DNA of 15,134 bases from the NCBI GenBank assembly GCA_017631215.1, contig JAGBTR010000114.1, positions 1 through 15,134 of the forward strand, in the 5' to 3' direction. Shown here in pieces: positions 2,403 through 13,633 of this stretch. The notes under the pieces were generated by a model. It had not been told where the DNA came from. It searched no databases and saw nothing but the letters and a program-made list of their open reading frames with translations. The stretch is from Clostridia bacterium. Its GTDB lineage: Bacteria > Bacillota > Clostridia > Oscillospirales > CAG-272. How positions within the stretch are numbered: the stretch's first letter is position 1; each line of letters opens with the position of its first letter. The position numbers were made by a program, and so were the translations under genes.

Positions 2403-2430
2403 GGGCAACGTAACGAGAGTTATGTCACAT
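2403..2430 (+). repeat. Left recombination-site-like inverted repeat of the switch
   Basis: Contains the 15-bp core TAACGAGAGTTATGT (2411-2425), the exact reverse complement of 2645-2659. Read as a recombinase site it has 12-bp arms (2403-2414 and 2419-2430) around the asymmetric centre GAGA (2415-2418). Its own arms are poorly matched to each other. GCAAC (2405-2409) and CAT (2428-2430) extend the match with the partner site, with three mismatches over about 26 bp. Confidence 0.85.
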
Positions 2431-2462
2431 TAAGCGTCGTGTCAAACGCCTATGCAAAGAAA

Positions 2463-2491
2463 ATTCTACCACATCTTTATAGAAAAATCAA
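2463..2491 (-). promoter_or_regulatory. Sigma-A promoter inside switch, facing left (OFF)
   Basis: On the minus strand: -35 TTGATT (complement of 2486-2491), 17-bp spacer ending in TGG, -10 TAGAAT (complement of 2463-2468). This is the best promoter in the gap between recombinase and sipW, and it points toward the 3' end of the recombinase gene. Inversion between the flanking repeats would move its -10 to about 2602-2607 pointing at sipW. An A run at 2368-2374 would give leftward transcripts a U tract just outside the switch, behind only a weak hairpin. Confidence 0.7.
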
Positions 2492-2514
2492 GACCTTTAT
2501 GAAAATTTGTTAAA

Positions 2515-2540
2515 CGCAACAAAAAATTTGCGCAACAAAA
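2515..2540 (+). repeat. Two short direct repeats CGCAACAAAA within the switch
   Basis: CGCAACAAAA occurs at 2515-2524 and 2531-2540, start to start 16 bp. The GCAAC element also occurs at 2571-2575 and in both flanking sites (2405-2409, 2642-2646), and inverted at 2591-2595 and 2661-2665. These may be protein-binding repeats or simple background in A-rich DNA. Confidence 0.4.
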
Positions 2541-2542
2541 TG

Positions 2543-2587
2543 ACCTTTCGTGTAGTTTTTATAGAAAAAAGCAACGAAAGGTTTTTT
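2543..2587 (+). terminator. Intrinsic terminator inside the switch, facing the operon
   Basis: ACCTTTCG (2543-2550) pairs with CGAAAGGT (2575-2582); the loop can form an inner TTTTT/AAAAA stem; T continues to 2587. In the assembled orientation it would stop read-through from the recombinase before sipW. It lies within the invertible segment, so it would face the other way after inversion. Confidence 0.7.
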
Positions 2588-2605
2588 GGGTTGCGCTTTT
2601 TTATT

Positions 2606-2624
2606 TATAATCGCCCTTGTCGAA
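2606..2624 (+). promoter_or_regulatory. TATAAT followed by a perfect Spo0A-box
   Basis: TATAAT at 2606-2611 points to sipW but has no recognisable -35 (TTTTTG at 17 bp). TTGTCGAA at 2617-2624 matches the Spo0A (0A) box consensus at all eight positions and would overlap the start of any transcript from this -10. Both lie within the invertible segment. Functional status is uncertain. Confidence 0.45.
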
Positions 2625-2639
2625 ATGTTTCTAAAAGCT

Positions 2640-2667
2640 ATGCAACATAACTCTCGTTATGTTGCAT
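2640..2667 (+). repeat. Right recombination-site-like inverted repeat, perfect palindrome
   Basis: ATGCAACATAAC (2640-2651), TCTC (2652-2655), GTTATGTTGCAT (2656-2667): perfect 12-bp inverted arms around an asymmetric 4-bp centre that is the reverse complement of the left site's GAGA. This is the architecture of a tyrosine recombinase core site. The shared 15-bp core with the left site is 2645-2659. It lies about 95 bp before the sipW start. Confidence 0.85.
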
Positions 2668-2760: not shown

Positions 2761-3507
2761 ATGGCGCGCAAAATTTGGGATATAGCGTCAAAGGTTATTG
2801 TGTGGACGTTGGTTGTGTTCAGCGTGTTTATGGCCGTTATTACGGTCAGCACCGTGGCGACCGCCGACAAAAACGAGCGTACCATCTTCGGACTTCGGTT
2901 TTACATCGTGCAAACGAACTCCATGAGCAAGTCGGAAAGCAACGCCCATCTGGACGTCCACTTCAATGCGGGTGATATCATCATTGCCAAAATCGCCAAG
3001 GATCCCGCGGCACTTCGGGAGGGTGAGATCATCTCCTTCATTTCTGCCAACAGCGAAAGCTACGGCGAGACGGTCACGCATATGATCCGCAGAGTTGAGA
3101 CAAACCGCGACGGAAGCACGCTCGGCTACGTGACCTACGGTACCAACACGGGCACGGACGACGAGACGCTGGTTGCGCCCGAATACGTTCTGGGTGTCTA
3201 CGTGGGCAAGATGCCCGCGATCGGTCAGTTGTTTGCCTACATCAAAACCACCCCCGGCTACATTGTCTGCATTCTCGTTCCGATGCTGCTGCTGTTGCTG
3301 TATAACGGCATCAACGTGGTTTCTCTGTTCCGTCGCTATAAAAAGGAGCAGACCGCCCAAATGGATGCCCAGCGCGCCGAGCTGGCGGCTGAGCGTCAGC
3401 GAACCGAGGAAATGCTGCGCGAGCTGATGGAGCTCAAGGCACAGCTGACCCAAAAATCCGACACGAGCGGAGAGGGCGACAAGCAAGGCGCGGACACCGA
3501 GGCGTGA
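2761..3507 (+). CDS. sipW: SipW-type signal peptidase I
   Basis: A 248-aa membrane protein. The start at ATG 2761 is preferred over ATG 2743 because AAGGAG (2748-2753) sits seven bases before it. An N-terminal membrane segment (about 13-35) leads into an S26 signal peptidase catalytic region: Ser54 in VQTNSM, GDIIIAKI (71-78), and His107 in VTHMIRRVE, i.e. the Ser/His dyad of SipW or ER-type enzymes instead of Ser/Lys. A second membrane segment (about 166-182) and a long charged, coiled-coil-like cytoplasmic tail (195-232, rich in Ala, Glu, Arg, Gln) follow. SipW enzymes process TasA-type fibre proteins whose signals end in an A-W-F or A-A-F pattern; three such proteins are encoded immediately downstream. 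The gene is the first of the operon behind the invertible promoter. The extended C-terminal coiled coil is longer than in Bacillus SipW. Confidence 0.88.
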   Translation: MARKIWDIASKVIVWTLVVFSVFMAVITVSTVATADKNERTIFGLRFYIVQTNSMSKSESNAHLDVHFNAGDIIIAKIAKDPAALREGEIISFISANSESYGETVTHMIRRVETNRDGSTLGYVTYGTNTGTDDETLVAPEYVLGVYVGKMPAIGQLFAYIKTTPGYIVCILVPMLLLLLYNGINVVSLFRRYKKEQTAQMDAQRAELAAERQRTEEMLRELMELKAQLTQKSDTSGEGDKQGADTEA

Positions 3508-3599: not shown

Positions 3600-5339
3600 A
3601 TGACGAAGTCTCGTTCCACTAAGAGCGCACTGCTGACCAGCGTCACCGCAATGATTCTGTGTTTCGCAATGTTGCTCAGCACCACCTACGCTTGGTTTAC
3701 TGACAGCGCATCCAGCACGGATAACAAGATTGTTTCCGGTAATCTGGACGTTGAGTTGTATCAGTGGACCGCTGCTGACGCAAGCACCAACATTTCCGAC
3801 AGCCACACCCCCGTTTTCACCGATGACATCCTTTGGGAGCCCGGTATGACGCAGGTCGTTTACCTGTCCATCAAGAATGCAGGCACGCTTGCACTCAAGT
3901 ACAAGGTCGCGCTTGACGTGACCAACGTCTCCACGGACGCTCTCACCGATGTGATGGAGTATGCCATTACGCCCGACGCGCACTTCGGTGGTGTCTCCGA
4001 ATGGAAGCAGGGCGAAGGCAAGAAGGCTGTGCCCGGCACCAATCCTACCGATGCCGTCGACGTTGAGCTGAAGGCAGGCGAGGAGCACTTCTTCGCTCTC
4101 TCCGTCCACATGCTGGAGGAGGCCGGCAACGAGTACATGAACGAGTCCATCACCTTTGATATCCGCGTGCTGGCAGGTCAGCTGTCGCACGAGGAGGATA
4201 GCTTTGGTAAGGACTACGACGTTCTGGCAGGCTATCCCGGCAAGGGCAGTGCCCCCGCCATCACGGGCAACAATACTGCCGCTGAGATCCAGATCGTTGA
4301 CGACAACGGCGCTAAGGTCGGTTCTGTCGTGATCCCCAAGGATGCTGCGGCTGATGACAAAACGCCCCTCGAGGCAGAGATCGCCGAGAGCTACTACAAC
4401 GGTAACTTCACCGTTGCCGCAGGTATGAGCGTCACCAAGTACGACGTTTCCGTTACCGGTCTGAAGGACGCCAACACGACGCCCGTTAAGGTTCAGCTCA
4501 GAATCGCTGCCGGCCTGAATCCCGCTACGGTTTCGGTCTATCACTATGATACGCTGATTCCCTCCACCTACAATCCTAACACGGGTTACGTGACCATCGA
4601 GAGCGCGACCTTCTCGCCCTTCTCGATCGTTTACGATGCAACTTCCGAGTATGTGCCCCCTGTAATCCCCGAGAATCCCACCGTGGAGTTCAAGGCGAAC
4701 GTAACCTATATGCCTGAGTACGTTGGTGAGGATAAGATCACCTGGGGTAACTACGGTCAGTGGGCGCCCACTGCCGGTCTGGATGCTAATCTTGAGGCTG
4801 CATTCCTCTTTGCTTGCCCGGACTATGCTACGGCAAGCGACGAGCTGAAGGCTCTCATCGATGCTTACAGATTCTGGTACTGCGATTTCTACGTGTCTCT
4901 TGACACGGATCTCGGCGCAAACGAGATCTTCCTTGGCGGTAACTACGGTGACTTCGGTTGGGTCGGCTTCCACAATGGCGATCTGACGCTGGGTGCCAAC
5001 GAGGAGATCCCGCTGCTGGGCTCTGTCACGTCCAATCCTTGGACCTACGATGACGTTGAGAGCTTTGTCAGTGAGTTCATCTGCGGTGTTGGCGACGTTG
5101 ACAATGCACTTGATGGTGCAAAGTTCACCGTTAAGCTGCGTCTGACCAATCCCGAGGATGAGGCTGATTACGTTGACGTGAACACTGTTACCTACACCTT
5201 CGGTGGCAACGCCGTTATCGACGGTGCTACGGTTGTTACCAGCGGTGCTGGTCTGCAGGAGGCTGTCGACAATGGTGCCGAGGAGATCGTTCTTGGCAAC
5301 GATATCGACCTGAACGAAGGTTTTGTTATCCCCCAGTAA
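3600..5339 (+). CDS. TasA-like SipW-dependent secreted fibre or surface protein
   Basis: A 579-aa protein with GAGGAGGT (3582-3589) upstream. The N-terminus is a SipW-dependent signal: basic start, hydrophobic core, then TTYAWFTDSASS (residues 28-39), followed by NKIVSGNLDVELYQW, the typical first strand of TasA/camelysin-like domains. Residues about 40-205 form the TasA-like domain (with EPGMTQVVYLSIKNAG and SVHMLEEAGNEYM). A threonine/valine-rich beta region runs to about 350, then a Pro hinge (PPVIPENPTVEFK), then an unrecognised domain (360-560) rich in aromatic residues and Asp. The protein ends abruptly in GLQEAVDNGAEEIVLGNDI, which looks like the first rung of a beta-helix repeat that is not continued. 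Likely the main exported substrate of SipW and perhaps an extracellular fibre subunit. Polymerisation is inferred from family, not seen. Confidence 0.82.
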   Translation: MTKSRSTKSALLTSVTAMILCFAMLLSTTYAWFTDSASSTDNKIVSGNLDVELYQWTAADASTNISDSHTPVFTDDILWEPGMTQVVYLSIKNAGTLALKYKVALDVTNVSTDALTDVMEYAITPDAHFGGVSEWKQGEGKKAVPGTNPTDAVDVELKAGEEHFFALSVHMLEEAGNEYMNESITFDIRVLAGQLSHEEDSFGKDYDVLAGYPGKGSAPAITGNNTAAEIQIVDDNGAKVGSVVIPKDAAADDKTPLEAEIAESYYNGNFTVAAGMSVTKYDVSVTGLKDANTTPVKVQLRIAAGLNPATVSVYHYDTLIPSTYNPNTGYVTIESATFSPFSIVYDATSEYVPPVIPENPTVEFKANVTYMPEYVGEDKITWGNYGQWAPTAGLDANLEAAFLFACPDYATASDELKALIDAYRFWYCDFYVSLDTDLGANEIFLGGNYGDFGWVGFHNGDLTLGANEEIPLLGSVTSNPWTYDDVESFVSEFICGVGDVDNALDGAKFTVKLRLTNPEDEADYVDVNTVTYTFGGNAVIDGATVVTSGAGLQEAVDNGAEEIVLGNDIDLNEGFVIPQ

Positions 5340-5353
5340 TTCTTTTTCAAGCT

Positions 5354-5419
5354 GCCACACCCCACGCGGGTGTGGCGGCGACAGAAGCGCACAAGATTTT
5401 CTTGTGCGTTTCTGTCGCC
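5354..5419 (+). other. Tandem intergenic RNA hairpins between fibre gene and giant gene
   Basis: Hairpin 1: GCCACACCC (5354-5362), loop CACGC, GGGTGTGGC (5368-5376), 9 bp perfect. Hairpin 2 begins at the next base: a 20-bp stem (5377-5396 with 5400-5419), loop TTT, with a single G.U pair. Neither is followed by a T run, so classical termination is unlikely. An RNA-stabilising, processing or partial attenuation element between two co-directional genes is plausible. Confidence 0.7.
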
Positions 5420-5463: not shown

Positions 5464-8400
5464 ATGAAACAAACGAGAAAGGCGTTTTGGACCAGTGCGG
5501 TAGCGCTGTTGCTTTGCTTCTCTATGCTTCTTGGCAGTACGTTTGCCTGGTTTACCGATTCTGCCAACAGCAATGGCAACATCGTGCAGAGCGGTAATCT
5601 GGACGTTGAGATGTACTGGTCGGAGGAGCTGCTTGCCGTCGATGAAAGCGGATGGCAAAACGCAGAGAGCGGTCCGATCTTTACTTACGATAATTGGGAG
5701 CCGGGATATACCGATGTGAAGTATATCAAGGTCAAAAATAACGGCAATCTTTCGTTCAAGTGGCGCCTTGTCATCGAGGCTATGGGCGCGGTCAATGAGC
5801 TGGCCGACGTGATCGAGGTCTATTACGTCAATCCCGTCACGGCAGAGATCACCTCGCTGACCGACCGCACGAGCGTCGGTGTGCTGTCCTCCGTCATTGA
5901 GGATCACACCTACACCGAGGGCGTACTGTACCCTGCGGGCGAGACGGCAACCGACCACCCCGTGGGCGAGACCGTGCTTGCCGTTGCCCTCCATATGCAG
6001 GAGAAGGCTAACAATGACTATATGGGCAAATCGATCGGCGACGGCTTTACCGTTCGTCTGGTCGCAACTCAGTTCTCGCACGAGGAGGATTCCTTTGGCA
6101 AGGACTACGATAAGGACGCACTGTGGCCGAATAACGTAAGCGTGGGTACCAATTCTGCCAGCGCAAGCGTTCAGACAACGGCCGAGAACAAGGTGGAGAC
6201 GGCAGTTGCTCTGCAGAGCAACGACGGCACCATCTCGGCAAACGTTCCCGCCGGCGTTTCCGTTGAGCAGGGCACGGATAAGCTGACGCTTCGCGTCGAC
6301 GAGGTCAGCGAGAGCGAGGCTAATATTTCGCTGTCGCGCACCGAGGCAACGCTGTCCGTTGACGTTCATATCGACGGCGTGGCAGAGGATAACGACGTCG
6401 TTATGATGATCGGCATCAAGGAGCTGTTGCCCGTGGGTCTGAATATGGGTAACTACCGCTTCTACCACGTGGAGGACGGCGCAACCGTCGCGATGACGCT
6501 GCTGACCGATGGCGCGACCCCTGCACATAACTACTACGAGTATGACCCCGGCACGGGTGACGTCGTGCTCTACCTCAAGTCCTTCTCCGAGGTTGCGCTG
6601 GTCGCCGATACCGTCAATCCTTGGAACGGTGACTATGCAGAAGGGTTCGCAGGCGGTGTTGGCACGGAGGAGGCCCCCTACCTGATCGCCAATGCCGACC
6701 AGCTCGCTTACTTTGGCGATGTGATCTCCAATAACAATGGCGACTACGGTTCGGCACACTACAAGCTGCTTGCCGACATCAACCTTGGTGGTGGGACGCA
6801 TAACTTCTACCCCATCGGCTACCATAAGGCAGGCGGCGCGGTTGCACTGGCTGATTTCGATAGCGCGCCCGTCTTTGAGTTCGTCGAAGCGGCGGCAGAC
6901 GATAACGACTACGCCATCACCCCTGCCAGCACGCTCGCAGATGAGGCGACCGAGTGGTACACCTTTGGCGGCGCGTTCAGCGGTACGTTTGACGGCGACG
7001 GTCATACCGTCCGCAACATCTACCAGAACACCTGGCAGCTCAAGGGCAACTATAGCGGCAACTATTGGAACGCTGCGATGGGTCTGTTCGGTTACGTCAA
7101 CGGCGGTACGGTCAAGAACCTGACCGTGGATAACTTCTCCTCGGACGGTGAGTTCACCCCCACGGGCGTGATCGCCGCTTATGCGACGAACTCTACGTTT
7201 GAGAATATCGCCATCACCAACTGTAACCCCCGCGTCTATAACACGGGCAACGGCGGTATCGTCGGTATCGGCGGTAACTCGGACGATCCCGATACCTATA
7301 AGCTCACCTTTACCAATATTACGATCGACAATACCAATACGATCAGCGCCCTTTGGGGCTCGTGGGACGTTGCCTGCGGCGGTCTTGTCGGTATGTTCCG
7401 CGGTGCGGGTCACGTGAATATGACCAACTGCCATGTGGCGGCGCAGATCGACGTTTATAACGACGTCTGCGGCAACTACCAGTATTACTGGTATCGCTAC
7501 GCAGGAATGATGATCGGTACCAACAAGAATATGAAGACGGATGCCAACGGCTATACCGTCCCCGAGACCGATAAGTTCCACGCAGAGAACTGCACCGTCC
7601 ACTTCGGTGAGTGGAACGACTATTACTACTGCGAGCTGGTCGTCAACTCGCTGGCGTCCTACACGCACGACCACCAGTTCAGCCGACTGATGCAGGTCGA
7701 TAGCGTCGACGCGCAGAATATGACATACACTCTTGATGGTATTAAGTATCCCATCTCCTCGGCGGGCAGATATAACTACGTTGTGGTCAACGGCGAATCT
7801 GCGACCGAGAACGCCACGTGCTATCACTTTGTTGACGGCGCGGTTTGGAACCACGAGGACGCAGGCGAGGAGACCGTTGGCGGCGAGACCGTCCTCAAGG
7901 AGGATAAGCAGCACGTCTACCTCCCCTTCAACCAGCTCTTCACGGGCTACGGCTGGGGTGTCAAGCATATCCCCGTCTACAACGGCGAGAATTATGCGTT
8001 TGGGGGCATCACCATTCTCGATAGAGAGGTCGCGGATTCGGTGGTGAAGTTTGAATCGAAGTTCAAGGGAGACTATCTCTACCGTGTCGGTAACAAGAAT
8101 ACCGTTTCTCTCGGCTCGCTCTTTGCTGCCAAGGCAGATCAGACGATCAACAATTCCGGCGTTTGGGTAACGATTGAAAAGGTTGATGAAAACTCCAATG
8201 TCGGCGGAACATTTACTGCAAACGCCTCCGATTGGACAAAGGGAACGATCCAGTTCAGCGGTACCGGTGTTGTTAAGGTAACCATTCAGGACTATAATTT
8301 CTGTACTCCTACAACACTTGCCGTCGAGGTTATTGATGCTGTCAATGCAACGAGCGCTACCAGTGCGAAGAGCAACAACGTTGTCCTGCTGAACGATGTT

Positions 8401-10818
8401 GGCATGAGTACCATTGAGGTCTCGGGCGGCTACACGCTCTACGGCAACGGCTTCAAGATGACGGCGACAACTGACCCTATGTACGATACCATGAGAGCCG
8501 GATTTGTAACTTTGGATAACGGCATTCTTGATAACGTTCAAATCATTTGTCCTAACTTCTCCTACGCTATTATTTACAACAGCCAAATTAAAGATGTTGC
8601 AAACACCGCTACGCCTTCCGATAGTTCTAACGATGCACGTGGTAACGTAAGAAGTGCCGTAATGGTAACCGGTAATAGCAAAATCGTGAATTCCTATGTT
8701 CACGGCGGTCGTGCGGCAATCTTCCTGCGCTCCGGCAACCTCCTTGTGGATGGTTCCACCATCAGCGGCGGCGCGGCGGCTAACATCCACGCGCTTTCCG
8801 CGCAGAGCTTGACGCTTCGCAATGCTACTTTGATTCAAAAGCCTTTTGAGGATAACGTACATAAAACAGGGAACACTTTGATGGGCTTTAGTGTTCTTCT
8901 CGAGTGCGGTGAGGATGGTTACTCCACCCCGGTAATTCTTGAAGGAACGTTGATTCAGGATGCTTGGATCAATGAAAGCTATGTGAAATACACGCCGAGT
9001 GCGGCTTCGAGCATTGTTGAAAATGCGCTTGGTAAGACTGCATATCTCCACGACCTTGACGGCGATGGTAAAAATGAATCCTTGAACCTTGGATTTACCT
9101 ATATTCCTCAGGACACCAATGGAAAGGCACTTACTGACAATTTGACGGACAACAGAACTGACAAAGCCGCTGTTCCGTATGAGTCTGTTGACGTTGGAAC
9201 TGCGTTTGCAAGTGCAAAGGTATATTCCTACAAGAATACCAACGGTACGTCGAATGATTTCACCACGGGAGGTGAGTATGAATCCAGCACGCAGGGCTCG
9301 ACCGCTCCTACGGTTTCGTTTACCGACACCAACGCCGATCGCGTGTTTGAAACTAAGTTCGATGCAAACGACGGTCGTTGGGAATCTACGCTTGCGGTAA
9401 ATCTCGATAACGGTAATTATACGTTTAGCTGGGATAAGTTGTTGATGCAAAAGCATGGCGACAACCTTACTTATAGCATTAAGACTGTCGATGGGGAAGG
9501 CGTTGATTATTCTAATGCAATTGCTCTTACTGCTACCGGCATGACCGAGTATGTGCTGACTGTCGCTGATGGTGAAGCAACTCACACCGTTCACTTTATT
9601 ATTACCGCTTCCAAGACCAGTATTCCCGAGCCAGAGACTGCTGACACCACGGGCGGAACTCCCTTGCTTGTCGTAAAGAGTAAGAACAGCGATTGGAGCT
9701 GCGCAATTCCTGCACTGGAAGGCATCAAGATCAAGTATTATACTGCCGACGGCGAGGTGATTCTTGACCTTGCAACCCTTACGCCTACTTCTACTGGTAA
9801 GCAGAACGGCACGAACAATTACTGGGAGACCACCAAGGATGGATATAAGCTGAAGGTAACTTGTGGTGTCATTCATGATACCAAGAGTGTATACGGCATG
9901 CCCGTTGTGGTCAATAATAGTGGAAACAAGATGTATTTTACCATCTCCAGCACGAACGGCTACGTTTCGACGAGTACCTCCGGCAGAACGGTCACGCTCA
10001 CCTATGAGTTTACCGATCCGAACGGTAAGTCGCTGACCTTCTCCAAGACATGGCAATTCAACTATGCGGACTACAAGAGCGGTAAGCAGTATTCCTATAG
10101 CGACTTTGTCAATGGCACGCTGAAGGAGGCTTCGAGCTCCTGCGTCATCCCCGACACGCTGGTGACGCTGGCAGACGGCACGCAGAAGCGCATCGATCAG
10201 GTGAGTTATGCGGATCAGCTGCTGGTTTGGAATTTCTACACGGGCGAGTATGATATAGCACCTGCGTCGATCGTCATGAATCACGGCGCAAACACCGTAA
10301 CCGTAACCACGTTGACCTTCTCGGATGGAACAACTGTCAACACGATCAATGGACACGGCTTCTTTGACGTGGCGGCCAATGCCTTTGTTCTGATCGATGA
10401 ATTCAATGCGTCTGATTATATTGGTCACAGCTTTGTCAAGCAGGACGAAAACGGATATAACACCGTTGAGCTTGTTTCTTACAGTGTGGAAGAGCAATAT
10501 ACGGAGGTCTGGTCACTCCTTACCGCTGAGCATTATAATTGCGTGCTGGAAGGTATGTGGACTGTAACCGCGGCAGAGGTTGATAATAGCCCCGCGTGGC
10601 TGATGCCTTACGCGATTGGCGAGGATATGAAGTACGATGAAGCCAAGATGAAGGCAGATATCGAAACGTATGGTCTCTATATCTACGAGGATTTTGCCGA
10701 TTACTGCACATATGAGCAGTTCGTCGCCTTCAGATTTGAAAACTTCAAGGTTTCCGTTGCTAAGGGATATATCACGTGGGCGGACATTGAATATTTGCTC
10801 TCGATCCATATTAAGTAA
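5464..10818 (+). CDS. Giant SipW-dependent secreted protein with GLUG, beta-helix, Ig-like regions and C-terminal Hint domain
   Basis: A 1784-aa protein, start ATG 5464 with AAGGAG (5450-5455). Regions: SipW-dependent signal ending GSTFAWFTDS (24-33); TasA-like domain starting NIVQSGNLDVEMYW (to about 220); beta-rich region to about 385; GLUG-type region (about 387-660; GTEEAPYLIANADQLAYFG, FSGTFDGDGHTVRNIY, MGLFGYVNGGTVKNLTV, GGLVGMFRGAGHVNMTNC); an Ig-like segment (about 860-958); a right-handed beta-helix-like region (about 960-1230); another Ig-like segment (1280-1395); a beta domain; then a Hint domain from Cys1560 (CVIPDTLVTLADGTQKRI), with block-B His1631 (INGHGFFDV) and block-F-like VWSLLTAEHYNCVLEG (His1690). 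No C-terminal His-Asn pair is present, so N-terminal cleavage or acyl transfer rather than protein splicing is expected. A 75-residue acidic, aromatic-rich tail closes the protein. Likely a surface adhesin or fibre tip. Confidence 0.85.
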   Translation: MKQTRKAFWTSAVALLLCFSMLLGSTFAWFTDSANSNGNIVQSGNLDVEMYWSEELLAVDESGWQNAESGPIFTYDNWEPGYTDVKYIKVKNNGNLSFKWRLVIEAMGAVNELADVIEVYYVNPVTAEITSLTDRTSVGVLSSVIEDHTYTEGVLYPAGETATDHPVGETVLAVALHMQEKANNDYMGKSIGDGFTVRLVATQFSHEEDSFGKDYDKDALWPNNVSVGTNSASASVQTTAENKVETAVALQSNDGTISANVPAGVSVEQGTDKLTLRVDEVSESEANISLSRTEATLSVDVHIDGVAEDNDVVMMIGIKELLPVGLNMGNYRFYHVEDGATVAMTLLTDGATPAHNYYEYDPGTGDVVLYLKSFSEVALVADTVNPWNGDYAEGFAGGVGTEEAPYLIANADQLAYFGDVISNNNGDYGSAHYKLLADINLGGGTHNFYPIGYHKAGGAVALADFDSAPVFEFVEAAADDNDYAITPASTLADEATEWYTFGGAFSGTFDGDGHTVRNIYQNTWQLKGNYSGNYWNAAMGLFGYVNGGTVKNLTVDNFSSDGEFTPTGVIAAYATNSTFENIAITNCNPRVYNTGNGGIVGIGGNSDDPDTYKLTFTNITIDNTNTISALWGSWDVACGGLVGMFRGAGHVNMTNCHVAAQIDVYNDVCGNYQYYWYRYAGMMIGTNKNMKTDANGYTVPETDKFHAENCTVHFGEWNDYYYCELVVNSLASYTHDHQFSRLMQVDSVDAQNMTYTLDGIKYPISSAGRYNYVVVNGESATENATCYHFVDGAVWNHEDAGEETVGGETVLKEDKQHVYLPFNQLFTGYGWGVKHIPVYNGENYAFGGITILDREVADSVVKFESKFKGDYLYRVGNKNTVSLGSLFAAKADQTINNSGVWVTIEKVDENSNVGGTFTANASDWTKGTIQFSGTGVVKVTIQDYNFCTPTTLAVEVIDAVNATSATSAKSNNVVLLNDVGMSTIEVSGGYTLYGNGFKMTATTDPMYDTMRAGFVTLDNGILDNVQIICPNFSYAIIYNSQIKDVANTATPSDSSNDARGNVRSAVMVTGNSKIVNSYVHGGRAAIFLRSGNLLVDGSTISGGAAANIHALSAQSLTLRNATLIQKPFEDNVHKTGNTLMGFSVLLECGEDGYSTPVILEGTLIQDAWINESYVKYTPSAASSIVENALGKTAYLHDLDGDGKNESLNLGFTYIPQDTNGKALTDNLTDNRTDKAAVPYESVDVGTAFASAKVYSYKNTNGTSNDFTTGGEYESSTQGSTAPTVSFTDTNADRVFETKFDANDGRWESTLAVNLDNGNYTFSWDKLLMQKHGDNLTYSIKTVDGEGVDYSNAIALTATGMTEYVLTVADGEATHTVHFIITASKTSIPEPETADTTGGTPLLVVKSKNSDWSCAIPALEGIKIKYYTADGEVILDLATLTPTSTGKQNGTNNYWETTKDGYKLKVTCGVIHDTKSVYGMPVVVNNSGNKMYFTISSTNGYVSTSTSGRTVTLTYEFTDPNGKSLTFSKTWQFNYADYKSGKQYSYSDFVNGTLKEASSSCVIPDTLVTLADGTQKRIDQVSYADQLLVWNFYTGEYDIAPASIVMNHGANTVTVTTLTFSDGTTVNTINGHGFFDVAANAFVLIDEFNASDYIGHSFVKQDENGYNTVELVSYSVEEQYTEVWSLLTAEHYNCVLEGMWTVTAAEVDNSPAWLMPYAIGEDMKYDEAKMKADIETYGLYIYEDFADYCTYEQFVAFRFENFKVSVAKGYITWADIEYLLSIHIK
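10141..10590 (+). other. Hint (Hedgehog/intein-like) autoprocessing domain within the giant protein
   Basis: Residues 1560 to about 1708. Block A begins with the nucleophile Cys1560, preceded by Ser-Ser-Ser. Block B contains TFSDGTTVNTINGHGFF with the catalytic-type His1631. A conserved-looking stretch NASDYIGHSFVKQDENG follows. Block F is EVWSLLTAEHYNCVLEGMW. The usual C-terminal Asn and +1 nucleophile of inteins are missing, as in Hedgehog-type and B-type bacterial intein-like domains. Confidence 0.8.
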
Positions 10819-10832
10819 TTCCCCCAAAAAAC

Positions 10833-10903
10833 TGCCACCCAAGCCCTTCGTAGCTTGGGTGGCAATCGAAGGGCATCGAGTATTTCGATGTCTTTCGATT
10901 GCC
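10833..10903 (+). other. Tandem overlapping RNA hairpins downstream of the giant gene
   Basis: Hairpin 1: TGCCACCCAAGC (10833-10844) with GCTTGGGTGGCA (10853-10864), 12 bp perfect, eight-base loop. Hairpin 2: 10861-10879 with 10885-10903, 19 bp with two G.U pairs, loop GTATT. The two share GGCA (10861-10864), so they compete at their junction. No T run follows. The arrangement matches the gap at 5354-5419 in design though not in sequence. Confidence 0.7.
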
Positions 10904-10943
10904 GAATTTATCGCTTCGATATGATGTGAAAGGAGAAAACGCT

Positions 10944-11489
10944 TTGGACAATCACACCCACCAACAGTCGATGACGGACAAGGCGTTTTCTCGCTTGATT
11001 GCTGTTCCGATCATTGGTATGATTATTTGCATTGTCTCGCTGTGCTCCGTCACTTGGGCGTGGTTCAGCGGCGGTGCGGTGAGCAACAGCAACACGCTGG
11101 AGTCCGGCTACTTCGATTTGGACCTTTCCATTGTGCGGGAAGGTGCCGAGCCGAGCACGGTCACGCCCGTCAAGGACGACGCCAGTGGCTACTGGCAATG
11201 CACGCTGGGTGAGGCGGGTGACTATACGATCACGCTGTCAACGGCCAATGCGTCGACTGCGTCCAAGGGCTATTGCGTAATCACTGTCGTCGGTTCGCAA
11301 TATGTCACCCCGCCACTGTATAAGACAAGTGATGCTATGCAGCCGACAGACGCATTTACCCTCACGATCACCACAGATACAGCCGACACCAGGGTCTTCT
11401 TTGAGCCGCGATGGGGTATTTCCTCTGCGGAGACCATTCCGAGCGGTTATCGCATTACGATTGAGACGATTCAGCTTATGCCGGAATAA
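10944..11489 (+). CDS. Small SipW-type exported or membrane-anchored beta protein
   Basis: A 181-aa protein starting at TTG 10944, chosen because AGGAG (10931-10935) is eight bases upstream and the more distal ATG at 10899 lies within the hairpin 2 arm. A short hydrophilic head (MDNHTHQQSMTDKAF) precedes a hydrophobic segment (18-37) ending in VTWAWFSGGAVSNSNT, the SipW-type junction, followed by LESGYFDLDLSIV, equivalent to the first TasA-like strand. The rest is a single Thr-rich beta domain (EAGDYTITLSTANAS, SGYRITIETIQLMPE). The hydrophobic core is longer than in the two upstream proteins. It may be a minor pilin-like subunit, anchor or assembly factor comparable in position to TapA. The last exported product of the operon. 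Confidence 0.75.
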   Translation: MDNHTHQQSMTDKAFSRLIAVPIIGMIICIVSLCSVTWAWFSGGAVSNSNTLESGYFDLDLSIVREGAEPSTVTPVKDDASGYWQCTLGEAGDYTITLSTANASTASKGYCVITVVGSQYVTPPLYKTSDAMQPTDAFTLTITTDTADTRVFFEPRWGISSAETIPSGYRITIETIQLMPE

Positions 11490-11534: not shown

Positions 11535-12038
11535 GTGAACGAATCAAAAAAAAACGTCGGCAGAGCGTCGCCGACAAGAGGTGACCTGAGCGGTCGCCGC
11601 TTTGGTAAGCTGGAGGTCATCTGTCGATCGGACAAGCGTGGCTCACGGGGCGCGAGAACGGTGCCGCTGTGGGAATGTCGCTGTGATTGCGGTAACACGG
11701 TCTACAAGGCGACGGATACGCTGAATCGTTCACCCAACAGTATGTGCAGTGCGTGCGCCGCTGATTATGCGAGCTCGCAGATGCGCGCGGCTGCCGGTTA
11801 CGTCGACGGCACTCAAATCAGCCGCATCAAAAGCGAGCATCTCATCGCGAGCAACACAAGCGGTGCGCGCGGCGTTTATAAGGATCGCGTCACGGGCAAG
11901 TGGCGGGCGCGTCTGAAATTCAAGGGCAAGCTGATGGATTTCGGCACCTATACCGATTTCGAGGATGCCGTGCGTGCCCGAAAGGAAGCCGAGCAGACCT
12001 ATTACGGTGAATTCTTGGACTCGTTGCCGAGCGAGTGA
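11535..12038 (+). CDS. Zinc-ribbon plus AP2/ERF-type DNA-binding protein
   Basis: A 167-aa basic protein with GTG start at 11535 and an AAGGCGG-like ribosome site about ten bases upstream, 45 bases after the preceding gene, so likely co-transcribed. The N-terminal part has the pattern DLSGRRFGKLEVICRS, then WECRCDCGNTVY (Cys48, 50, 52) and MCSACAAD (Cys71, 74), a zinc-ribbon-like motif. The C-terminal part (about 105-160; SGARGVYKDRVTGKWRARLK, GKLMDFGTYTDFEDAVRARK) is an AP2 domain: a three-stranded sheet and helix that bind DNA. Zinc-ribbon/AP2 proteins occur in phages and mobile elements of Bacillota, often beside HNH homing nucleases, but no HNH motif is present here. A role as operon regulator, or as accessory or directionality factor for the recombinase, is inference. 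Confidence 0.82.
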   Translation: MNESKKNVGRASPTRGDLSGRRFGKLEVICRSDKRGSRGARTVPLWECRCDCGNTVYKATDTLNRSPNSMCSACAADYASSQMRAAAGYVDGTQISRIKSEHLIASNTSGARGVYKDRVTGKWRARLKFKGKLMDFGTYTDFEDAVRARKEAEQTYYGEFLDSLPSE

Positions 12039-12085: not shown

Positions 12086-12126
12086 CAAGAACTCCATAGC
12101 GTCATTTTGACGCTATGGAGTTCTTG
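12086..12126 (+). terminator. Strong hairpin at the end of the operon
   Basis: A perfect 19-bp stem (12086-12104 with 12108-12126) with a three-T loop, beginning 47 bases after the AP2 gene stop. The following sequence CTGTTATTAC has only scattered T, so it is an atypical terminator; it probably ends or protects the operon transcript. Confidence 0.6.
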
Positions 12127-12359: not shown

Positions 12360-12478
12360 TAAAACAGAAGTGCAAAATACTCATGCAGATAGGCGTTCCC
12401 TTATACATCAAGGGCTACCAATATCTCCTCAACTCCTATTTCGGATTTTCCATTCCGAAAAGCAAAATATACGGTTAA
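12360..12478 (+). pseudogene. Decayed Spo0A effector-domain fragment with internal deletion
   Basis: One open frame encodes MQIGVPLYIKGYQYL, equivalent to the first helix of a Spo0A C-terminal domain, joined directly to LLNSYFGFSI, equivalent to its end. The central part, including the recognition helix, is missing. The 30 bases 12425-12454 are identical to 13138-13167 in the intact gene downstream. It lies after the promoter with no ribosome site, so it is probably untranslated and now part of the leader of the intact gene. Confidence 0.65.
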
Positions 12479-12543
12479 TTGAAAGAATGACAGAGAATAA
12501 AAAGGAAGATTTTTTAACGCAAAGGAGAAACAAAATAAGTAAC

Positions 12544-13245
12544 ATGAACCAAAACACGAACGCAAATGAAATTACCAAAATTCTGGACGAGATGGGAATG
12601 CCTGCCGCGCTCAAGGGGTATGCATATTTACATAGGGCTATTTCACTCGCTGTGGACGACAGCATCGTCATTTTCGACATGGCAAAGCTTTATGACGATG
12701 TGGCGAATGAATTTGCAACGACGGCGGGAGGCGTGGCGGCTGCGATGCGTAAGGCCATCGGAATCGCATGGGACAGAGGCGATGTGGACGTCCTTATCTC
12801 CTATTTCAGCTACACGATCCAAAACAACCGAGGGAAGCCGACCAATACCGAGTTTATTGCGATGATTGCGGAGCGTGTGAGCTTGCAGCAAGAAAATGAT
12901 GCTCTGAAAACACGCCTTGCCAACGTCCTGCATCAGCTTGGCGTACCTGCAGATATCAAGGGCTACGGATACCTCCGTTCCGCGATCCTCCTCACCGTCG
13001 AGGATAGTGATATTATCCAATCGCCGACAAAAGTGCTTTATCCGACTGTTGCAAAGCAATACGGTACCACCGCAAGCCGCGTCGAGGGTGCCATCCGTAA
13101 AGCGATTGAAATCGCGTGGGACAGAGGAGACGTGGACCTCCTCAACTCCTATTTCGGATTTTCCATTCAAAACTGCGGCGGAATACCGTCCAACACCGAG
13201 TTTATCGCTATGATCGCAGACAATCTGCGGTTGCGATTTCGGTGA
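12544..13245 (+). CDS. Tandem Spo0A effector-domain DNA-binding protein without receiver
   Basis: A 233-aa protein made of two Spo0A C-terminal (HTH) domains. Repeat 1, residues 9-112: ITKILDEMGMPAALKGYAYL, AMRKAIGIAWDRGDVDVL, KPTNTEFIAMIAERV. Repeat 2, residues 125-230: VLHQLGVPADIKGYGYLRSA, TTASRVEGAIRKAIEIAWDR, SNTEFIAMIADNLRL. A short helix-like linker (QQENDALKTRLAN) joins them. No phospho-acceptor receiver domain is present, so activity would not depend on a phosphorelay in the usual way; the covalent tandem mimics a Spo0A dimer. Repeat 2 keeps the SRVE recognition-helix start, whereas repeat 1 has GGVA. Start choice is uncertain: AAGGAG (12522-12527) is 16 bases from ATG 12544, and ATG 12487 would add 19 basic residues. 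Likely a transcription regulator acting at 0A boxes. Confidence 0.8.
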   Translation: MNQNTNANEITKILDEMGMPAALKGYAYLHRAISLAVDDSIVIFDMAKLYDDVANEFATTAGGVAAAMRKAIGIAWDRGDVDVLISYFSYTIQNNRGKPTNTEFIAMIAERVSLQQENDALKTRLANVLHQLGVPADIKGYGYLRSAILLTVEDSDIIQSPTKVLYPTVAKQYGTTASRVEGAIRKAIEIAWDRGDVDLLNSYFGFSIQNCGGIPSNTEFIAMIADNLRLRFR

Positions 13246-13584: not shown

Positions 13585-13633
13585 GGGGAACGACTTTTGG
13601 AACACCTTCAAAAAGTCGTTCCCCTTTGCTTTG
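13585..13633 (+). terminator. Intrinsic terminator-like hairpin
   Basis: GGGGAACGACTTTT (13585-13598) pairs perfectly with AAAAGTCGTTCCCC (13611-13624), loop 12 bases, followed by TTTGCTTTG. Directly preceded by the GC-rich hairpin. Probably ends the transcript of the tandem Spo0A gene and remnant. Confidence 0.7.

Follow-up and report, generated by a model that had tools for sequence, protein, structure and literature searches.

The stretch of DNA analysed here (hereafter the window) comprises 15,134 nucleotides and forms one contig (C107) of a Clostridia bacterium genome assembly of 1.89 Mb, 343 contigs and 73% completeness. Read from left to right, all on the plus strand, a gene for a tyrosine recombinase of 279 aa (1522-2361) is separated by 46 bp from the first of two 18-bp sites; 219 bp lie between the sites, and 98 bp separate the second of them from a sipW-like gene (2761-3507), which is followed by genes for three secreted-type proteins up to position 11489. 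The recombinase has a GTG start with AGGAGG upstream and a stop codon ending at 2361, and the sipW ATG at 2761 is preceded by AAGGAG. A preliminary description had reported a complete recombinase gene on the left, sipW on the right and, between them, a perfect 15-bp inverted repeat with imperfect extensions and opposed asymmetric centres (GAGA and TCTC). All of these were recovered: a repeat search returned the repeat at exactly 2411-2425/2645-2659, the extensions (2405-2430/2640-2665) are 88% complementary and the two centres are present as described. The full sites are 18 bp long and read ACGTAA-CGAGAG-TTATGT on the left (2408-2425, one mismatch to the family consensus described below) and ACATAA-CTCTCG-TTATGT on the right (2645-2662, a match to the family sites), so that inverted repeats flank a short segment of 219 bp (2426-2644). 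A 15-bp repeat arose in 3 of 3000 random sequences when these matched the 399-bp intergenic region in dinucleotide composition, and in 1 of 200 when they matched the whole window. Because random sequences can reach this length, the repeat alone is suggestive and not proof; we regard the comparison across relatives as far stronger evidence. In the host genome, which is incomplete, a scan for ACATAA-N6-TTATGT with at most one mismatch returned the two window sites and one unpaired site elsewhere, and no second paired set.

The recombinase carries integrase domains (PF00589, PF02899) and, by motif and alignment, the R-K-H-R-H-Y residues of an Xer-like tyrosine recombinase. We take its catalytic residues to be R138, K160 or K162, H225, R228, H251 and Y260, and the reading frame is intact. 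Its nearest solved relatives are XerA-type and XerD proteins. It scores far under the curated cut-offs for XerC/XerD proper (TIGR02225, 114 of 330 bits; TIGR02224, 107 of 335) and reaches only 28 bits against the tyrosine-type DNA invertase model PRK09870 (cut-off 221).

The best 80 of 200 recombinase relatives (60-75% identity) were compared, which makes 81 loci once the window is included; the loci counted below also served to define the site consensus, the promoter thresholds and the hairpin structure. Paired ACATAA-N6-TTATGT sites lie directly behind the recombinase at 70 of the 81 loci, the first beginning 1 to 81 bp after the end of the gene. Seventy-two loci have at least two sites with no more than one mismatch, and the spacers of the outermost sites are exact reverse complements in 70 of these; at the two exceptions (L026, L036) the contig stops before a right arm. 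There are 49 distinct spacers among the 72 loci, none of them palindromic. Centres that are identical within a locus and free between loci are what strand exchange between two sites demands. Ten of the 11 loci lacking a pair have merely 0 to 234 bp of contig past the gene; the other, L064, has no paired sites despite 6 kb of downstream sequence. Loci that played no part in deriving this rule agree with it: a further 29 (L085-L113) comprised 17 copies of known loci and 12 new ones. A complete pair with matching spacers was found in 10 of the new loci, and L086 and L102 each show a single site close to the locus end. In 11 of the 70 paired loci (L004, L005, L007, L012, L016, L018, L023, L024, L030, L061 and L063) one or both arms are present in extra tandem copies, 29-77 bp apart and with the same spacer.

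Of the 12 letters of the site core, 11 agree with E. coli dif (shared core CATAA-N6-TTATGT), and kinship to XerA/XerD further recalls Xer/dif dimer resolution (PMC3025954, in excerpt). The sites here differ in being paired and inverted, with locus-specific spacers and one linked recombinase that falls well short of the XerC/XerD models. The dif likeness raises the question of whether host XerC/XerD, rather than the linked enzyme, recombines these sites; the genome does hold another XerD-family match elsewhere (203 bits, under the family cut-off). We consider this improbable, as sites are almost confined to the DNA directly behind the linked gene: 161 (at most one mismatch) lie within 900 bp behind the recombinase compared to 5 across the remaining 767 kb of all 81 loci. 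Moreover, spacers vary freely across loci, unlike those of dif, which are thought to be conserved.

Relatives are also found on DNA labelled as mobile. Kin that are 47-48% identical and have the same sites occur on Subdoligranulum and Monoglobus records labelled as plasmids, pairs were found in 3 of 5 plasmid and phage loci, and both of the 2 (of 6) loci on contigs called viral that reach far enough contain a pair. The remaining plasmid and phage loci, L114 (a Pusillibacter plasmid recombinase, 49% identity) and L118 (a phage clone, 44%), are without such sites. In L114, from Pusillibacter faecalis, the recombinase kin precedes an S-layer-homology protein. These records could indicate that the recombinase belongs to a mobile element, with the repeats being attachment or dimer-resolution sites. 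However, the sites are inverted rather than direct and lie ~260 bp from each other, what they enclose is a promoter with a hairpin and no cargo, and the other window proteins that were scanned match no mobile-element family, making this a very improbable account of the locus. At a threshold of E<=1e-40 the recombinase was found in 110 of 395 genomes sampled within the window's family, covering 46 of 71 genera. Two recombinases from metagenome contigs (P0002 and P0003) are 90% and 89% identical to that of the window. Similar segments were found before different genes (L033/L035, L055/L069), which suggests that the cassette moves between operons.

The preliminary description had proposed a search of related genomes for the same locus with its segment reversed, and such loci were found. 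Both orientations exist, between relatives only, in the pairs L015/L020 and L017/L023. L015/L020, the better of the two, has a 253-bp segment that is 98.0% identical when reversed and lies between colinear flanks: the recombinase-to-arm DNA is 92.8% identical, the right flank matches at 215 of 215 positions and the kilobase to the left of the recombinase at 940 of 1001 columns. This pair adjoins a TasA-family/SipW operon, because the first gene downstream in L015 encodes a SipW-type signal peptide and a PF12389 domain scoring above cut-off, with a SipW homologue coming next; the L020 contig ends before its first downstream gene is readable in full. Reversal before a TasA-family/SipW operon is therefore seen directly, between species representatives and not within one population. 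In L017/L023 the 243-bp segment is 99.2% identical reversed, with flanks that are less alike (86% left, 80% right). A global alignment of their right flanks gives 47% over 150 bp, this low value arising because an extra arm in L023 shifts the alignment out of step; stepping over that arm gives 63 identities in 81 columns. The segment of this pair is 99% identical compared to just 86% for its recombinase-to-arm DNA, and it seems to have been exchanged or homogenised apart from its gene. Reversal is also seen in others, including L004/L005, whose segments are less identical and whose flanks are weaker. The window's own segment is at best ~62% identical to that of any relative, in either direction.

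The right arm of the window is itself palindromic, forming an 18-pair hairpin that a scan flagged as terminator-like (2634-2673). After inversion this palindrome would sit in the sipW leader and could act by attenuation. Inverted repeats that are mere transcription terminators or attenuators, with no inversion at all, would also produce such a hairpin. They would not produce reversed segments in relatives, spacers that match exactly across arms ~260 bp apart or the tandem arm copies in 11 loci, and we find this explanation scarcely credible. A second alternative accepts that the family switch is invertible and holds that it is locked OFF in the source organism, through the mismatched left arm or lost activity. 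The left site does read ACGTAA and not ACATAA, a single orientation is known for the source organism, and a search of five other genomes from the genus gave no recombinase at E<=1e-40. Nevertheless, the recombinase frame is intact with its presumed catalytic residues, the window spacers match exactly and single mismatches also occur elsewhere (e.g. L017, L063, L080). One of these, L017, has a segment 99% identical in reverse to that of L023 despite its mismatch. A frozen switch in this organism is consequently unlikely, and we favour one in which the neighbouring recombinase is probably able to flip the segment.

The preliminary description had also placed a promoter between the repeats. The segment does contain a predicted, conserved sigma-A-like promoter by sequence. 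One correction concerns its direction: the better promoter (2491-2463, minus strand; TTGATT-17-TAGAAT with TG before the -10) faces the recombinase. Because it points away from sipW, the window is read as being in the OFF state. A consensus promoter scan of the window alone was uninformative, with one found against a mean of 1.2 in shuffles; conservation of type and position across the loci lends the predicted promoter its support. The typical family promoter is TTGATT or TTGTAA, 17 bp, TATAAT. The best promoter score per segment has a median of 12.5, compared to 8.2 for one random sequence per locus. One promoter stands out in most segments; by the rule applied, 63 of 70 have such a promoter, with the -10 ending 24-51 bp (median 43) from the arm that it faces. 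Twenty of the 70 loci have the promoter facing the downstream gene (ON), 43 have it facing the recombinase (OFF) and 7 are unclear; for the 21 SipW-linked loci the figures are 8, 11 (window included) and 2.

A terminator between the repeats had been claimed as well. What stands is a long hairpin (2530-2596, minus strand) behind the promoter; that it terminates transcription we infer. A hairpin is similarly placed in 62 of 70 segments, and the best hairpin energy (dG) in the segments has a median of -21.6, compared to -13.3 in random sequences. Covariation was counted on an alignment of 33 of the 62 position-filtered hairpins, with the window row supplying the structure. On the hairpin alignment RNAalifold gave no prediction, and named pairs were counted instead because helix registers differ between loci. 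Cells were paired in 79.7% of cases compared to 74.7% when shuffled, and the covariation score was 0.271 compared to 0.190, both above all 500 shuffles. Moreover, in 49 cells pairing was preserved although both partners had changed (28.5 shuffled, 0/500 as high). By contrast, among the same 33 hairpins neither the number of pairs changed on both sides (9 vs 7.9 shuffled, 157/500 as high) nor that of further pair types (22 vs 19.8, 62/500 as high) stood out. Sliding the hairpin partners lowered all five measures. The inner stem has an A-run before it and a T-run after it, suggesting termination in both directions, and we read the hairpin as a putative bidirectional terminator or insulator that would flip together with the promoter.

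A separate leftward terminator, on the minus strand in the gap from the recombinase stop to the left arm, is predicted at 53 of the 67 loci where this gap is at least 15 bp. None of the 67 has a terminator on the plus strand in the same gap (shuffled control, 1/67). The window's own example (2365-2390, a terminator-like hairpin and T-run) is weak, at -3.6 kcal/mol.

The first gene past the switch encodes a SipW-like signal peptidase with S26B-type Ser and His residues, which are invariant in 22 of 22 aligned homologues. Its best family match is SipW, with both models below cut-off (NF046067, 75 bits, cut-off 190; TIGR02228, 46 bits, cut-off 52). The next gene (3600-5339) encodes a 579-aa secreted protein with a SipW-type signal peptide (TIGR04088 above cut-off) and a TasA-like N-terminal domain; PF12389 falls below cut-off on the protein itself and is precomputed on 65 of its 119 listed homologues. 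The fold of its predicted model matches 7ueg and 8aur. The top Foldseek matches were low-TM and uninformative, and a second structure look placed two ankyrin ZU5 chains first, on another part of the model, and TasA fifth. It is followed by a 1784-aa protein (5464-10818) with a SipW-type signal peptide (TIGR04088 above cut-off, PF12389 below) and by a small protein (10923-11489) whose N-terminus resembles a SipW-type signal peptide as judged by eye alone, and which had no match in family-model scans. The C-terminal part of the 1784-aa protein contains a presumably Hint/intein-like stretch starting CVIPDTLVTLADGTQ, and residues 1556-1634 match NF038136 weakly; a structure search with this C-terminus gave no solved relative. 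For the SipW/TasA-type operon that had been proposed, the TasA label comes from homologues and a moderate fold match, the operon's own proteins being below the Pfam cut-off.

SipW homologues were found downstream at 21 of the 63 loci with at least 2 kb of downstream sequence, and upstream at none. Among 56 loci scanned, SipW heads the downstream genes in only 4. The idea that the association is simply inherited with the recombinase was unsupported overall (13 tree changes, compared to a shuffled mean of 15.1; 86/500 as low). The window's own set of 23 rows is SipW-rich, with 13 SipW, 5 short contigs and 5 other. In open-licence literature, at the level of titles and the starts of abstracts, no inversion before a SipW/TasA operon was found; subscription papers and preprints lie outside this search.

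The central proposal of the preliminary description, a recombinase-linked invertible promoter before a SipW/TasA-type operon, is thus supported by the L015/L020 reversal, by reverse-complementary spacers at 70 of 70 paired loci and by the SipW homologues downstream. With its anatomy, conserved parts and reversed segments between relatives directly observed, the switch is likely to be real and widespread. We are confident, on comparative sequence grounds, that the locus is a self-contained DNA-inversion switch, in which an Xer-like recombinase flips a segment carrying promoter and hairpin between dif-like sites. The recombinase (1522-2361) would recognise the two inverted sites through their ACATAA/TTATGT half-sites, which enclose a locus-private spacer, and flip the 219 bp (2426-2644) holding one promoter with the hairpin behind it. 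In the ON state the promoter would face right, sipW and the SipW-dependent secreted proteins would be transcribed, and the hairpin would stop read-through coming from the recombinase gene. In the OFF state, that of the window, the promoter would fire left into the terminator that separates the left arm from the recombinase gene, sparing the latter antisense transcription, whilst the hairpin would sit between the recombinase gene and sipW. In both states the operon would be shielded against recombinase transcription. We infer that the linked enzyme does the flipping and that the segment flips in the source organism; the hairpins would act as terminators and the product would be a TasA-like surface fibre or matrix. 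Operon expression may be phase-variable or bistable, as the preliminary description had proposed.

The principle is known. In the fimS/FimB system of E. coli, the promoter segment that a tyrosine recombinase inverts is 314 bp long and lies ahead of a surface-fibre operon (PMC9993118; PMC7446863, both in excerpt); the likeness is one of arrangement, and the window recombinase is weak on PRK09870. The RecV flagellar switch of C. difficile is likewise a tyrosine-recombinase inversion in the class Clostridia. However, its 154 bp lie in the leader and have no functional promoter, with control acting post-initiation and involving Rho (PMC7446863), whereas the present segment holds a promoter. Closer in distribution is inverton group 139/invertase group 35, with 33 invertons, 32 of them from the class Clostridia and nearly all near a tyrosine recombinase of one group (PMC11892184, in part). 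Two reported examples measure 255 and 257 bp between outer repeat ends, and reads show both orientations (PMC11892184). Group 139 may be the present family, being likewise Clostridial, recombinase-linked and of the same size. If so, read-level flipping has already been observed for kin. A word search of the main text of that paper returned no 'SPFH', 'signal peptidase', 'matrix' or 'bidirectional', and 'terminator' once, as future work.

The operon resembles tapA-sipW-tasA of B. subtilis, which is under SinR (PMC9674648, in excerpt), and bsaA/sipW of C. perfringens, for which heterogeneous expression is reported (PMC7395162, in excerpt), in having a SipW-type peptidase with SipW-dependent secreted substrates that are at least partly TasA-like. 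The words 'recombinase', 'inversion' and 'phase variation' are absent from the main text of the C. perfringens paper as searched. The principle is therefore known from fimS and gut recombinase-linked invertons, the layout is distinct and the SipW/TasA cargo is unreported within the open-licence literature searched. We lean, somewhat, towards a broader reading: a portable cassette (leftward terminator, site, hairpin and promoter, site), with an Xer-derived recombinase and a dif-like pair, would have been placed repeatedly by gut Clostridia before SipW/TasA fibre operons, as well as surface or membrane operons of other kinds, so that matrix is decided by heritable inversion and not by SinR-type bistability. 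In B. subtilis, matrix production is a textbook example of bistability between cells arising from a regulatory circuit. Gut Clostridia appear to achieve a similar division by flipping DNA, which can be read from sequencing reads. A constant half-site, a private spacer and a linked recombinase make such switches findable, and their state callable, in metagenomes, and the family could supply recombinase/site pairs. The leftward terminator and the flipping hairpin offer a testable account of a tight OFF state and a spared recombinase gene.

Some further features of the window were observed. A small protein with a GRRFGKLEVI-like stretch (11535-12038), for which a family scan gave no clear family, has counterparts near other switches, ~2.7 kb behind the recombinase in L010 and ~0.36 kb in L019. 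Hairpins with 18-20 nt arms (89-100% complementary) and 3-5 nt loops lie at 5377-5419, 10861-10903, 12086-12126 and 13585-13624, chiefly between genes, and are possible terminators or processing sites. Shortly downstream of the matrix-like operon, a plus-strand gene (12370-13245) encodes two tandem Spo0A C-terminal DNA-binding domains (PF08769, 226 bits in two stretches).
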